A stretch of DNA of 64,000 bases. Origin: Ulvibacter litoralis (GTDB lineage: Bacteria; Bacteroidota; Bacteroidia; Flavobacteriales; Flavobacteriaceae). Positions 38,344 through 49,315 of this stretch are shown here, piece by piece. The DNA lies in the NCBI RefSeq assembly GCF_900102055.1, contig NZ_FNBA01000003.1:1-64000 (forward strand), read 5' to 3'. Made by a program: the position numbers and the translations under genes. The notes beneath the pieces are model-generated. The model saw only the letters and a list, made by a program, of their open reading frames with translations. It did no database searches and was not told where the DNA came from. How positions within the stretch are numbered: position 1 is the stretch's first letter; each line of letters opens with the position of its first letter.

Positions 38344-38368
38344 GTCATTCTGAACTTGTTTCAGAATC
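38344..38368 (+). repeat. Palindromic repeat copy a (CTTGT-spacer family)
   Basis: GTC precedes ATTCTGAA and TTCAGAAT, perfect 8-bp arms around CTTGT, in the paaD-paaG gap. The 25-base layout is the same as copies c, d, f and g in this window. Confidence 0.8.
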
Positions 38369-38393: not shown

Positions 38394-38417
38394 GTCATTC
38401 TTGCGAAAGCTGGAATC
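38394..38417 (+). repeat. Palindromic repeat copy b (4-base-spacer family)
   Basis: GTC precedes ATTCTTGC and GCTGGAAT, imperfect arms around GAAA, 25 bp after copy a. It resembles copies h and i, which flank the second GIY-YIG gene. Confidence 0.65.
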
Positions 38418-39362: not shown

Positions 39363-40571
39363 ATGTCTGAAACAAATCAAAAATCTCCAATCAAGGCGGT
39401 AGGAATAATAGGCGCAGGAACTATGGGCTCAGGAATTGCGCAAGTAGCTGCAACTGCAGGATGTGTGGTGAAGTTGTTCGATTTAAATCAAGCCGCTCTC
39501 GATAAAGCAAAAGCTAGTCTTGAGAAAATCATGACTCGTTTGGTGGAAAAAGGGCGCGTTACTCTCGAAGAGAAAACTAGAATTCAAGACAGTATTAGCT
39601 ATGTAAATTCTTTAAAAGAATTAGCAGATTCAGATCTTACGATTGAAGCAATTGTTGAAAATATAACTATTAAAAAGAAGGTGTTTCAAGAGTTGGAGAG
39701 TCATGTTTCTGAAGCGTGTATTATTGCTTCAAACACATCGTCGCTTTCAATCGCTTCTATTGCGTCATCGCTTCAGAAACCAGAACGATGCGTAGGGATT
39801 CACTTTTTTAATCCAGCACCTTTAATGAAATTGGTAGAGGTGATTCCGTCGATACAAACTTCCGAAGCAACCTTAAAAACTTCCGTAAAAACAATTCAAA
39901 ACTGGAAGAAAGTAGTGGCGGTGGCTAAAGATACTCCTGGATTTATCGTGAATCGTGTGGCAAGACCTTTCTACGGCGAGGCCCTACGAATTTACGAAGA
40001 GGGCATTGCAGATTTTGAAACCATCGATGCTGCCATGAAAACACAAGGTGGCTTTCGAATGGGCCCTTTTGAATTGATGGATTTCATCGGGAATGATGTG
40101 AATTATACGGTTACTGAAACGGTGTTTGAAGCTTTTTACAACGATCCACGATACAAACCTTCCTTCACACAAAAACGTTTTTCTGAAGCAGGTTACCTCG
40201 GAAGAAAATCGGGAAGAGGGTATTATTCGTACGATGAAAACGGAAAAATAACACAACGTCATTCTGAACTCGCTTCAGAATCTCATGACACTGCTGAGGT
40301 TGCCACTTCAATCTTCGAACGAGTGTTAGTAATGTTGATCAACGAAGCCGCAGACGCATTGTTCTGGAATATTGCTTCCGCAGAAGATATTGACAATGCG
40401 ATGACCAAAGGAGTCAATTATCCGAAGGGATTATTGGCGTGGGCAGACGAAAAAGGAATAGCGTGGTGTGTGGCGCAATTAGATGAATTGTACGATGAAT
40501 ACCATGAAGATAGATACCGTTGTAGCCCTATGCTACGACGAATGAATAGAGAGAATAAAACATTTTTTTAA
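39363..40571 (+). CDS. paaH: 3-hydroxyacyl-CoA dehydrogenase of phenylacetate degradation, with in-frame repeat insertion
   Basis: The 402-residue NAD-dependent enzyme oxidises 3-hydroxyadipyl-CoA. The Rossmann motif GIIGAGTMGSGIAQVA (about 14-29), IEAIVENITIKK, SNTSSLSI and HFFNPAPLMKLVEV are present, followed by two C-terminal helical domains. Residues 299-310 (RHSELASESHDT) are encoded by a palindromic repeat inserted in frame between those two helical domains. This tract is not part of the family consensus. Paa context and fold support PaaH. The stop is directly followed by the paaI start. Confidence 0.92.
   Translation: MSETNQKSPIKAVGIIGAGTMGSGIAQVAATAGCVVKLFDLNQAALDKAKASLEKIMTRLVEKGRVTLEEKTRIQDSISYVNSLKELADSDLTIEAIVENITIKKKVFQELESHVSEACIIASNTSSLSIASIASSLQKPERCVGIHFFNPAPLMKLVEVIPSIQTSEATLKTSVKTIQNWKKVVAVAKDTPGFIVNRVARPFYGEALRIYEEGIADFETIDAAMKTQGGFRMGPFELMDFIGNDVNYTVTETVFEAFYNDPRYKPSFTQKRFSEAGYLGRKSGRGYYSYDENGKITQRHSELASESHDTAEVATSIFERVLVMLINEAADALFWNIASAEDIDNAMTKGVNYPKGLLAWADEKGIAWCVAQLDELYDEYHEDRYRCSPMLRRMNRENKTFF
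40258..40282 (+). repeat. Palindromic repeat copy d, inside paaH
   Basis: It has the same perfect arms as copy a (ATTCTGAA / TTCAGAAT), here around CTCGC, with GTC before and C after. The outer bases GTCAT (40258) and ATGAC (40285) extend the symmetry. It is translated as part of paaH without a frameshift. Confidence 0.85.
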
Positions 40572-45808: not shown

Positions 45809-45833
45809 GTCACTGCGCACTTGTTGCGCAGAC
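45809..45833 (+). repeat. Palindromic repeat copy f, left end of first GIY-YIG element
   Basis: GTC precedes ACTGCGCA and TGCGCAGA (7 of 8 pairs) around CTTGT. It aligns base for base with the inverted copy g at the other side of the GIY-YIG gene, sharing CGCACTTGTTGCG. Confidence 0.85.
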
Positions 45834-45857
45834 GCTTAAATAGAAAACCAATGTAGA

Positions 45858-46187
45858 ATGAAAATGCCGCGCGAACACAAGTATTATACATACATCCTCA
45901 CGCACGAAAATAATCATATTTTCTATGTAGGAGTAACAAATAATATGAAGCGCCGGACAGCAGAACATAAAGCGTCAACACATGGAACACATGTAGGGAG
46001 ATATAACATTAAGAAATTAGTCTATTTTGAAGAACATCAATGGATTCAAGAGGCTGTTAGAAGAGAGAAAACGATTAAAAAGTGGAAACGAGAATGGAAA
46101 ATAAACATTATTACTGAAATGAATCCTGAATGGGAAGATTTAAGTGATGATTGGGACCTTTCTAAGTTTGCAATAGAAAACGAATAA
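45858..46187 (+). CDS. Small GIY-YIG nuclease, bracketed by palindromes (first copy)
   Basis: The 109-residue single-domain nuclease has the GIY-YIG core as TYILTHENNHIFYVGVTN, with the catalytic Arg in MKRRTAEHK and the glutamate in RREKTIKKWKR. Small stand-alone GIY-YIG proteins of this type are common, but their function is largely unknown. It interrupts the paaZ-paaF gap and has no evident link to aromatic degradation. Inverted copies of a 25-base palindrome lie 24 bp before its start and 2 bp after its stop, so gene and palindromes look like one 406-bp unit. Confidence 0.88.
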   Translation: MKMPREHKYYTYILTHENNHIFYVGVTNNMKRRTAEHKASTHGTHVGRYNIKKLVYFEEHQWIQEAVRREKTIKKWKREWKINIITEMNPEWEDLSDDWDLSKFAIENE

Positions 46188-46189
46188 CC

Positions 46190-46214
46190 GAATCCGCAAC
46201 AAGTGCGGATTGAC
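46190..46214 (-). repeat. Palindromic repeat copy g, right end of first GIY-YIG element
   Basis: On the minus strand: GTC, AATCCGCA, CTTGT, TGCGGATT, C, with perfect 8-bp arms. It is the inverted partner of copy f. Confidence 0.85.
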
Positions 46215-47083: not shown

Positions 47084-47701
47084 ATGATTTACAGTTTTAA
47101 AGGACATATTCCCGTAGTACACGAATCTAGTTTTGTGCATCCGTTAGCGGCTGTGACTGGAAATGTAATTATTGGAAAAAACTGTTACATAGGTCCTGGT
47201 GCTGCGATTCGTGGCGATTGGGGAGAGATTATCTTGGAAGACGGCGTAAACGTACAAGAAAACTGTACGGTGCATATGTTTCCAGGAAAGAGCATTGTGT
47301 TGAAAGAAGGCGCTCATGTGGGTCATGGAGCTGTAATACACGGCGCTAATTTAGGACGTAATTGTTTGATAGGGATGAACAGCGTGATTATGGATGGTGC
47401 CGAGATAGGAAATGAATGCATTGTAGGTGCGATGGCTTTTGTGAAAGCCGAAGAAGTATTTGAACCTAGAAATCTCATCGTAGGAAATCCTGCAAAGGCA
47501 ATCAAAGAGGTTTCAGATGAAATGATTGCTTGGAAAACAGCCGGAACAAAATTGTACCAACAATTACCTGCCGATTGTCATGAGAGTTTAAAGGAAGTTG
47601 AACCCTTGCGTGAGATTCCGAAGAATAGACCGAAACAAGAAGATTTTTATAAAACGCTAAACCAATTCCTGCGCAGGCAGGAATCTCATTCTAAAGAATA
47701 A
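47084..47701 (+). CDS. paaY: PaaY-like hexapeptide-repeat thioesterase / gamma-carbonic anhydrase-type protein
   Basis: The 205-residue left-handed beta-helix protein has hexapeptide repeats with metal-binding histidines in VHMFPG and GAHVGHGAVIHGA. PaaY proteins hydrolyse dead-end thioesters of the pathway. I chose ATG 47084 rather than TTG 47078 because MIYSFKGHIPVVHES is the usual start. The C-terminal residues FLRRQESHSKE are encoded by a palindromic repeat and appear to be an acquired tail. The stop overlaps the next GIY-YIG start by one base. Confidence 0.9.
   Translation: MIYSFKGHIPVVHESSFVHPLAAVTGNVIIGKNCYIGPGAAIRGDWGEIILEDGVNVQENCTVHMFPGKSIVLKEGAHVGHGAVIHGANLGRNCLIGMNSVIMDGAEIGNECIVGAMAFVKAEEVFEPRNLIVGNPAKAIKEVSDEMIAWKTAGTKLYQQLPADCHESLKEVEPLREIPKNRPKQEDFYKTLNQFLRRQESHSKE
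47665..47690 (+). repeat. Palindromic repeat copy h, left end of second GIY-YIG element
   Basis: ATTCCTGC and GCAGGAAT are perfect 8-bp arms around GCAG, followed by CTCATT. It lies inside the 3' end of paaY and is translated. Copy i is its inverted partner. Confidence 0.85.
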
Positions 47702-48018
47702 TGAGTATATGGTACGTCTATATGATTGCAAATAAGCCTAACGGTGTTTTGTACATTGGGTGTACACACAATATAGAAGAAAGAGTAAAAGAACACAAAT
47801 TAAAGATATACCCTAATAGTTTCACCGCTAGATATAATTGTGATAAAATAATATATTTTGAAGAAATAAATGCTGGAGACATTGCTTCAAATCGTGAAAA
47901 GCAAATGAAGAAATGGAAAAGAGAATGGAAGGTCAAGTTAATAGAAGAAATGAACCCAAGTTGGATGGACTTAAGTTTAAATTGGAATTTAAATTTTAAT
48001 AAATTAAGGAATGAGTAA
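47701..48018 (+). CDS. Small GIY-YIG nuclease, bracketed by palindromes (second copy)
   Basis: The 105-residue single-domain nuclease has the core VYMIANKPNGVLYIGCTHN and the glutamate motif NREKQMKKWKREWK. It is related to the first copy; both end in a conserved MNP-W-DLS tail. Its start overlaps the paaY stop by 1 bp and its stop overlaps the E2 start by 8 bp. The flanking palindromes h and i are inverted to each other, one in each neighbouring gene. The unit of palindromes plus gene spans 47665-48047. Confidence 0.88.
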   Translation: MSIWYVYMIANKPNGVLYIGCTHNIEERVKEHKLKIYPNSFTARYNCDKIIYFEEINAGDIASNREKQMKKWKREWKVKLIEEMNPSWMDLSLNWNLNFNKLRNE

Positions 48019-49315
48019 CGAAAAGAGATTCCTGCCTACGCATGAATTTACAATGCCCAAAATGGGCGAGAGCATTACAGAAGGAACCATTTTAAACTGG
48101 TTGGTAGAAGAAGGCGATTCTTTTGAAGAAGGCGATATTTTGTGCGAAGTTGCTACCGATAAAGTAGATAACGAAGTACCTGCTCCTGCTTCAGGAAAAA
48201 TGATTCAGCATTTGTACGCCCCAAAATCTGTAGTCGAAGTAGGAACCGCAATTGCATTATTGGAACTTTCAGGCGAGGCTAAAACAGAAGTTTCCGAAGC
48301 AACAAAAACGAAAGCTCCTGTAGAGAAAAAGAACGTTAAAAAAACAGTAGCACCTTCAAAAGGGACGCAGCAAAAAGCATTTAAAGTAAACGAGAATGTA
48401 TTTATTTCTCCATTGGTGGATGCAGTAGCTCGAAAAAATCACATCAGTTACGAGGAGTTGGCACGTATTCCAGCAACAGGTAATAAAGGACGTTTGCGTA
48501 AAAGTGATGTGGTAAATTATATTGCTGAAGGGCGTCCGTTTCAGTTTGCACAACCCGTTTCTGAAAATTCAGGATTTCAAGTTCCTGACTTAAAATTTGA
48601 CAAGGGCACAGGGAAAATTGTGGAGATGGATCGCATGCGTGAGATGATTGCAGACCACATGGTGTATAGCAAGCATACAAGTCCGCATGTTACGGCATAT
48701 ATTGAAGCAGATCTTACCGATATGGTTACTTGGCGGAATGCGAATAAATTAAAATTTTTAGATAAACACGGTGAGAAATTAACGTTTACGCCTTTGTTTA
48801 TTGAAGCTGTAGCGAAAGCTATCAAAGATTTTCCGATGATAAATTCATCCTTAGATGGGAAGAATATTATTGTAAAAGAAGACATCAATATCGGAATGGC
48901 AACTGCTTTGCCAACTGGAAATTTAATTGTGCCAGTGGTTAAAAATGCAGATCAGAAAAACTTAAAAGAATTAGCTTCTTCCACCAACGAATTGGTTGGA
49001 AAATCACGCTCTGGAAAATTAAAAGGCGATGATATGAAGGGAAGCACATTCACCATTAGTAATGTGGGAACCTTTGGAAGTTTGATGGGAACGCCCATTA
49101 TAAATCAGCCGGAAGCAGCCATTTTAGCGACTGGAATTATAAAAAAACGTGCTGAGGTGATTGAAAAACCTGAGGGAGATACGATTGAAATACGTAGTAT
49201 GATGTATTTATCCTTATCGTTCGATCATCGGATTGTAGATGGGTATTTGGCAGGCTCTTTTTTAAGAAGAGTAGGAGATTATATGGAGCAATTTGATGTG
49301 AAAAGAACGTATTAA
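48011..49315 (+). CDS. 2-oxoacid dehydrogenase E2 (dihydrolipoamide acyltransferase)
   Basis: The 434-residue protein has one lipoyl domain (about 12-90, MPKMGESITEGTI, lipoyl Lys in CEVATDKVDNEV). A peripheral-subunit binding domain follows (about 135-175, ISPLVDAVARKNHI). A catalytic acyltransferase domain ends it (about 205-434, LSLSFDHRIVDGYLAGSFL). It resembles branched-chain-type E2. Residues 6-12 (RFLPTHE) come from a palindromic repeat, so the N-terminus is altered. An alternative start at Met15 (48053) would skip it. It is followed by the matching fused E1. Confidence 0.93.
   Translation: MSNEKRFLPTHEFTMPKMGESITEGTILNWLVEEGDSFEEGDILCEVATDKVDNEVPAPASGKMIQHLYAPKSVVEVGTAIALLELSGEAKTEVSEATKTKAPVEKKNVKKTVAPSKGTQQKAFKVNENVFISPLVDAVARKNHISYEELARIPATGNKGRLRKSDVVNYIAEGRPFQFAQPVSENSGFQVPDLKFDKGTGKIVEMDRMREMIADHMVYSKHTSPHVTAYIEADLTDMVTWRNANKLKFLDKHGEKLTFTPLFIEAVAKAIKDFPMINSSLDGKNIIVKEDINIGMATALPTGNLIVPVVKNADQKNLKELASSTNELVGKSRSGKLKGDDMKGSTFTISNVGTFGSLMGTPIINQPEAAILATGIIKKRAEVIEKPEGDTIEIRSMMYLSLSFDHRIVDGYLAGSFLRRVGDYMEQFDVKRTY
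48025..48047 (-). repeat. Palindromic repeat copy i, right end of second GIY-YIG element
   Basis: ATTCCTGC and GCATGAAT (one mismatch) surround CTAC, preceded by GAG. Its reverse complement aligns with copy h, including the CTC trailer. It lies in the 5' end of the E2 gene. Confidence 0.8.

Follow-up and report, generated by a model that had tools for sequence, protein, structure and literature searches.

The window analysed here, a 64,000-nucleotide stretch of the Ulvibacter litoralis genome, carries between paaZ and echA a stand-alone GIY-YIG gene (gene 1), which interrupts no host gene and is bracketed by two inverted, tagged palindromes. We refer to the gene with its palindromes as element 1 (Table 1). 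The left copy is GTCACTGCGCACTTGTTGCGCAGAC and the reverse complement of the right copy is GTCAATCCGCACTTGTTGCGGATTC, with CGCACTTGTTGCG common to both. The original prediction had placed the two copies correctly and aligned them without gaps, and 20 of the 25 positions indeed match. It had also assigned 8-base complementary arms to both copies, which is true of the right copy (8/8 pairs) but not of the left, where only 7/8 positions pair and the outermost is an A.A mismatch. Among the five positions that differ between the copies, one is this mismatch and the other four constitute two stem pairs, in which double changes (C-G/A-T and G-C/C-G) preserve the pairing. When folded as single-stranded DNA, the left copy reached -8.7 kcal/mol (z -2.7) and the right copy -7.9 kcal/mol (z -5.0), both clearly beating shuffled sequences. 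The GIY-YIG frame starts 24 bp past the left copy and stops 2 bp short of the right copy, just as had been described.

Table 1. Coordinates of the GIY-YIG genes and of the palindromes in the window.
Feature	Position	Strand	Remarks
Left REP of element 1	45809..45833	+	TGTC-tagged palindrome, stem 7/8, loop CTTGT, tag outward
Gene 1, stand-alone GIY-YIG protein, 109 aa	45858..46187	+	Active-site motif intact, purifying selection
Right REP of element 1	46190..46214	-	TGTC-tagged palindrome, stem 8, loop CTTGT, tag outward
Left palindrome of element 2, ATTCCTGC GCAG GCAGGAAT	47665..47684	+	Tag eroded; now read as C-terminus of paaY-like ORF
Gene 2, stand-alone GIY-YIG protein, 105 aa	47701..48018	+	42% identical to gene 1
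Right palindrome of element 2, imperfect	48028..48047	-	Inside first codons of downstream dihydrolipoamide acyltransferase-like ORF
Lone CGTC REP, gene-3 type, CGTCATTCTGAACTTGTTTCAGAAT	38344..38367	+	
Lone CGTC REP, gene-3 type, CGTCATTCTGAACTCGCTTCAGAAT	40258..40281	+	

Gene 1 encodes a single GIY-YIG domain, PF01541 being its sole Pfam match (1e-14). The residues of the GIY...YIG core, including the catalytic R, H, E, and N (Y12, Y23, G25, R33, H37, E70, and N89), are invariant or nearly so, and dN/dS values of 0.04-0.07 against two close orthologues (L007/L008) indicate strong purifying selection. The fold of the predicted structure (pLDDT 85) resembles UPF0213 (1zg2), which has the same single-domain size, as well as Slx1 (4xlg) and the N-terminal nuclease domain of UvrC (1yd6); the sequence relation to these nucleases is weak, the best PDB sequence match having E 0.007. 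Slx1 cuts branched DNA and might plausibly serve as a precedent for cutting extruded hairpins. GIY-YIG homing endonucleases of the I-TevI type share the catalytic domain and the association with DNA mobility, but the genes described here are single-domain and palindrome-bracketed, and have no intron, intein, or host-gene target. We also considered a defence-system or phage gene and rejected it, as PADLOC and PHROGs gave no match to gene 1 and, for gene 2, just weak ones to homing endonucleases.

The original prediction had missed that a second GIY-YIG gene in the window (gene 2) has the same layout with a different palindrome. The inverted arms of this element 2 (47664-47690 and 48022-48048) are 89% complementary. 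The start codon of the acyltransferase-like ORF, at 48011, overlaps the end of gene 2. Element 2 has taken the place of the last part of the paaY-like ORF and provides the codon at which the downstream acyltransferase ORF starts. Both neighbours are altered in the region 47640-48060, where the paaY-like ORF stops just past the left palindrome and the acyltransferase ORF runs through the right one, and relatives show a short gap there instead. In a collection of inverted repeats from across the 64 kb (length 20 nt or more, arms no more than 600 bp apart), the two GIY-YIG genes were bracketed by two of the three longest pairs (I1 and I3), and the bracketing of elements 1 and 2 is therefore not a matter of chance.

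PF01541 has six matches in the Ulvibacter litoralis genome, half of them in stand-alone genes and the others in long frames (452, 462, and 605 aa). Each of the three stand-alone genes lies between inverted palindromes of a family of its own: the GTCANTGCGCACTTGTTGCGCA type at gene 1, ATTCCTGCGCAGGCAGGAAT at gene 2, and the CGTC-tagged CTGAACTCGTTTCAG at gene 3, which lies on contig C38 (locus L001) in the layout REP pair-gene-REP pair. Gene 3 and its two REP pairs lie at positions 1370-1850 of that locus, and the last codons of gene 3 (ETLDIF) duplicate those of the neighbouring gene of a biotin cluster. The three REP types have 2, 2, and 8 copies in the genome, and relatives reach 37 copies. 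Both copies of the gene-1 type are those at gene 1, and the type is rare, with six copies in 120 genomes, four of them at a GIY-YIG gene; three candidate places for further copies in the Ulvibacter litoralis genome were inspected, and none is a tagged palindrome. A degenerate TTCCTGC-type palindrome (GTCATTCTTGCGAAAGCTGGAAT) lies at 38394-38416, about 27 bp past the intact gene-3-type REP at 38344, and a 113-bp unit with a terminator-like hairpin stands in at least three tandem copies at L286 (G000:C38:450800-451400); this unit contains GCACTTGTTGC but is not a tagged REP.

The flanking palindromes fit the CGTC-REP superfamily (Di Nocera 2013, PMC3733652), which includes the Neisseria dRS3 and the Rickettsia RPE-4/RPE-6 repeats, in their CGTC/TGTC tag, A-T first stem pair, stem of 8-9, loop of 4-5, and inverted dimers. 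All three REP types of the genome share these features, with the exceptions of one 7/8 stem and of element 2, whose tags are lost. The gene-1 type differs in lacking the usual CCA tail, ending in TTCGGT or AGACGC, while the other types end in TCCA, TCTA, or TCTC. It also has just its two copies in the genome, whereas a high copy number is a feature of the superfamily.

The association is not confined to this genome. From a scan of 84,980 species we took the 80 best relatives and searched them for GTC-tagged palindromes; within 100 bp of the GIY-YIG genes, 111 had the tag pointing outward and 5 inward. The density of outward-tagged REPs was about 10 per kb beside the gene and below 0.1 per kb beyond 500 bp. 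The original prediction had asked whether orthologues elsewhere carry flanking palindromes. They do, on both sides in 53 of the 80 relatives, and other genes of the same genomes and neighbourhoods do not: the more distant, equally short second stand-alone GIY-YIG subfamily had outward GTC-tagged REPs at 0/20 genes, and neighbour genes without an abutting GIY-YIG gene had both-sided palindromes at 0/24 (echA) and 0/48 (paaY). Replacing the tag with six other trinucleotides yielded zero or one both-sided case. A tag-free hairpin test of the 80 relatives found hairpins on both sides in 54/80 compared with 0/300 shifted windows. A second sample consisted of 120 genomes, each essentially from a different genus of the same family, with 90 close stand-alone GIY-YIG genes; tag-free hairpins occurred on both sides at 38/89 and on at least one side at 63/89, compared with 0/195 both-sided shifted windows. 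One-sided hairpins are found in about 10% of shifted control windows. Imperfect CGTCATTGCGAGG...CGAAGCAATCTC repeats, missed by the strict hairpin tests, bracket the GIY-YIG genes at L108, L110, L112, L116, L120, L127, and L138. Genome G087 has four GIY-YIG genes from two clades (L092, L117, L121, and L129) within about 6 kb in and around its paa cluster.

The same layout recurs in 26 of 42 loci from other phyla and plasmids. It was seen in Patescibacteria, Spirochaetes, and Alpha- and Gammaproteobacteria as well as on plasmids, with examples in Novosphingobium aromaticivorans pNL2, Azospirillum lipoferum AZO_p3, Shinella, Rhizobium, and Rhodopseudomonas, and in Neisseria a GIY-YIG gene lies among dRS3-type repeats. 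GIY-YIG genes between CGTC-type REPs are present in Azospirillum lipoferum, Novosphingobium, and Rhodopseudomonas, all of which are named in the description of the superfamily (PMC3733652). The association of GIY-YIG genes with bracketing palindromes is secure.

The palindrome type is specific to the enzyme. REP typing is coarse, one class mixing related stems, and the loci, clade labels, and counts are not fully independent, having been drawn from genomes related to one another; on this typing, the left and right palindromes were of the same type at 97 of 110 typed loci, compared with 26 expected by shuffling, and the REP type changed 19 times on the tree of 131 typed GIY-YIG genes, compared with 74 times with shuffled labels. 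A typed paralogue in their own genome was available for 41 genes; the nearest relative of these genes from a different genome was of matching type in 38 cases, whereas paralogues within one genome shared their type in only 10 of 94 comparisons. The palindrome type hence goes with the enzyme and not with the host.

Repeat numbers at the genome level follow the same gene. We counted REPs with exact patterns for two types, for which a reversed-pattern control gave zero throughout. At least three REPs were present in 39 of 53 genomes with a close GIY-YIG gene compared with 8 of 67 without one (p=5e-12), and the association persisted (p=1e-10) after removing all copies within 400 bp of GIY-YIG genes. 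Each REP type was most abundant in the genomes carrying its own GIY-YIG gene type. Y1 transposase loci had REP flanks in 0/24 cases, and genomes with Y1 but no GIY-YIG gene had a median of 0 REP copies. REP number follows GIY-YIG, not the Y1 transposase. Mobilisation by a resident RAYT was ruled out because the Ulvibacter litoralis genome has no match to PF01797 (Y1_Tnp) and because none of those Y1 loci is REP-flanked. A few genomes (G070, G096, and G051) are REP-rich without a close, strong GIY-YIG match, which must be explained by gene loss if the GIY-YIG enzymes are the cognate nucleases of the repeats.

Comparison of orthologous sites bears on whether gene and palindromes travel together. 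Gene 1 orthologues lie between paaZ and echA in about 30 loci from several genera. The original prediction had called for a comparison of this locus for empty sites, and clean empty paaZ-echA junctions of 8-19 bp do exist in relatives (L207, L212, L213, L216, L221, L222, and L223). L210 and L219 hold a bare outward palindrome pair without a gene at the orthologous junction, and L225 has three tandem gene-1-type palindromes without the gene; gene-bearing (REP-gene-REP) and gene-less (bare REP pair) versions are thus found at the same junction. Genes of the gene-2 clade occupy four junctions of one paa cluster. In many relatives, the paaZ-echA and echA-paaY junctions (L205, L211, L210, L013, and L025-L028) are filled by bare GTCATTGCGAGG/GCAATCTC-type repeat pairs, making the paa operon a hot spot for such repeats.

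Sphingobium plasmids show the presence and absence of the unit with edges inside the REPs. Four aligned strains have the arrangement CGTCACCCCGGGCTTGACCCGGGGTCCC-gene-inverse; in two relatives, a single palindrome composed of the outer arm of the left REP and the distal part of the right REP occupies this site; and two others have neither gene nor palindrome there. Since the gene-less palindrome equals a deletion between 8-bp arm repeats, both loss and gain are possible. No empty sites were found on the Rhizobium CIAT894 plasmids. The empty sites and the Sphingobium plasmids support insertion or loss as a unit. The evidence for joint acquisition of gene and palindromes is mixed, with the presence or absence seen on the Sphingobium plasmids on one side and some paaZ-echA junctions that hold REP pairs but no gene on the other.

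Target duplications gave a mixed picture. L207 contains a gutted element at the start of the same acyltransferase gene as element 2, flanked by a 23-nt direct duplication of acyltransferase coding sequence. Direct repeats to the left and right of the gene were found at 29% of 169 loci compared with 1.8% of cross-locus pairs, but many contain REPs and may be repeat arrays. A narrow test for duplications next to the REP tags found only a few, and clean duplications of unique sequence are few as well (L039, L052, and L207). Target duplication is therefore not supported as a general rule, the excess in the wider test being confounded by REP arrays. Apparently frame-broken GIY-YIG genes, syntenic or related and some still with palindromes (L009, L020, L023, L031, L040, and L066), suggest frequent gene death.

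The original prediction had entertained a mobile role for element 1. Recent mobility of gene 1 is unsupported, since the gene is syntenic in the related loci and its REP type is found only at gene 1 in the genome. Element 1 is an old, settled, syntenic copy.

Such a settled gene might also be explained by autoregulation, the strongest of the alternatives although an unlikely one. A cellular GIY-YIG nuclease or binding protein would control its own expression by cutting or binding the palindromes as operators or mRNA hairpins, and the other repeats would be decoys or would have spread otherwise. The vertical inheritance of gene 1 with two REPs absent elsewhere in the genome suits this explanation, as does the purifying selection, and the match between REP and enzyme types is compatible with a binding-site model as well. 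Autoregulation, however, predicts neither the many more dispersed REPs of the same type in genomes with the gene nor the gene-less outward pairs at orthologous junctions, neither whole units present or absent between related plasmids nor a gene-2 clade at four different junctions of one operon.

A little less probable still is that the movement of CGTC REPs is due to a different enzyme or to replication slippage, with the GIY-YIG gene being repeatedly trapped between REPs or inserting into them as a homing-like parasite. Random trapping would not yield clade-specific REP types in same-genome paralogues (38/41 versus 10/94) or an orientation bias of 111:5 at a fixed short distance, and neither the Y1 transposases of the same genomes nor the equally short second GIY-YIG subfamily are ever REP-flanked. 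In favour of such a passenger, REPs are known targets of insertion sequences (PMC3733652), some loci (L001 and L273) have REP pair-gene-REP pair layouts, direct repeats contain REPs, and gene 2 weakly resembles phage homing endonucleases. Ordinary intrinsic terminators or chance hairpins beside a short gene are highly improbable: short hairpins are common in AT-rich intergenic DNA and occur one-sidedly even in shifted controls, but the fixed GTC tag, the outward orientation on both sides, the matched left and right types, the absence of any both-sided case among 495 control windows, and the location of some palindromes inside neighbouring ORFs contradict this explanation.

The best explanation is a large REP-plus-nuclease system, not linked up before, to which gene 1 belongs as one member together with its two palindromes. 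We consider it probable that the clade of stand-alone GIY-YIG proteins of about 100 aa comprises the cognate nucleases of CGTC-tagged REPs, as analogues of RAYTs that belong to an unrelated enzyme family. By definition, a RAYT gene always has an inverted REP on either side and forms a unit with the two, and enzyme and REP trees have been compared (PMC2817692). The GIY-YIG system shares with REP/RAYT (TnpA-REP) and REPINs (PMC2817692, PMC3116915) an enzyme gene between two inverted tagged palindromes, the co-divergence of enzyme and REP types, dispersed single and paired REPs, and the frequent location beside larger REP arrays. The enzyme there is a Y1 HUH tyrosine transposase (PF01797) and the REP head is GTAG, whereas here we found GIY-YIG (PF01541) and (C/T)GTC. 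The system works like RAYT/REP but is not one, because the enzyme class and the GTAG head do not agree. The likeness to REP/RAYT that the original prediction had proposed, with the tyrosine transposase replaced by a GIY-YIG protein, gained strength from the recurrence of the layout across phyla, from REP types that track the enzyme clade, and from repeat numbers that track the presence of the gene. Terminal inverted repeats with gene-bearing and gene-less versions are also shared with pairs of insertion sequences and MITEs.

How the system might operate can be sketched from these arrangements. The GIY-YIG protein would recognise the tagged hairpin of its own type, probably in the form of an extruded cruciform or of single-stranded DNA exposed at a replication fork, and would nick at or near the tag. 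Outward-tagged REP pairs could then delimit a unit open to copying or insertion, which would either enclose the gene (REP-gene-REP, about 400 bp) or consist of a gene-less, MITE-like REP pair of about 50-90 bp. The joining step would presumably be left to host repair or replication, since strand transfer is not accounted for by a nuclease on its own. Old copies such as gene 1 would settle, be passed on vertically, and keep both REPs. Transposition by the GIY-YIG protein, along with the details of nicking and insertion, is an inference. It is also conceivable, and we suggest it tentatively as somewhat less probable than the cognate-nuclease relationship itself, that these units of about 400 bp represent a new class of GIY-YIG-driven bacterial mobile elements with matched tagged terminal hairpins, long and variable target duplications, and gene-less REP-pair derivatives that constitute the CGTC-REP superfamily, dRS3 and the Rickettsia RPEs among them.

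CGTC REPs occur in several phyla and have been reported as apparently having no dedicated transposase; that study monitored only transposase genes, does not mention GIY-YIG, and left the mobilising enzyme, if any, as its closing question (PMC3733652). Our search of open-licence PMC papers found none linking GIY-YIG genes to REPs, and prior art might exist elsewhere. Because the same arrangement recurs in many phyla, the GIY-YIG enzyme is the best candidate so far for moving or maintaining CGTC-tagged REPs. A specific and testable enzyme family can now be named for these repeats, with matched enzyme/REP pairs, three of them in one genome, and with the enzyme present where the repeats are. If the new class of mobile elements is real, it would mean that the REP/RAYT lifestyle arose independently from a nuclease of unrelated descent. 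If the GIY-YIG proteins are the cognate enzymes of the repeats, the REP/RAYT arrangement would have at least two evolutionary origins, in nucleases that are unrelated to each other, and the known roles of GIY-YIG nucleases in repair, restriction, and homing would be joined by one in the dynamics of bacterial repeats.
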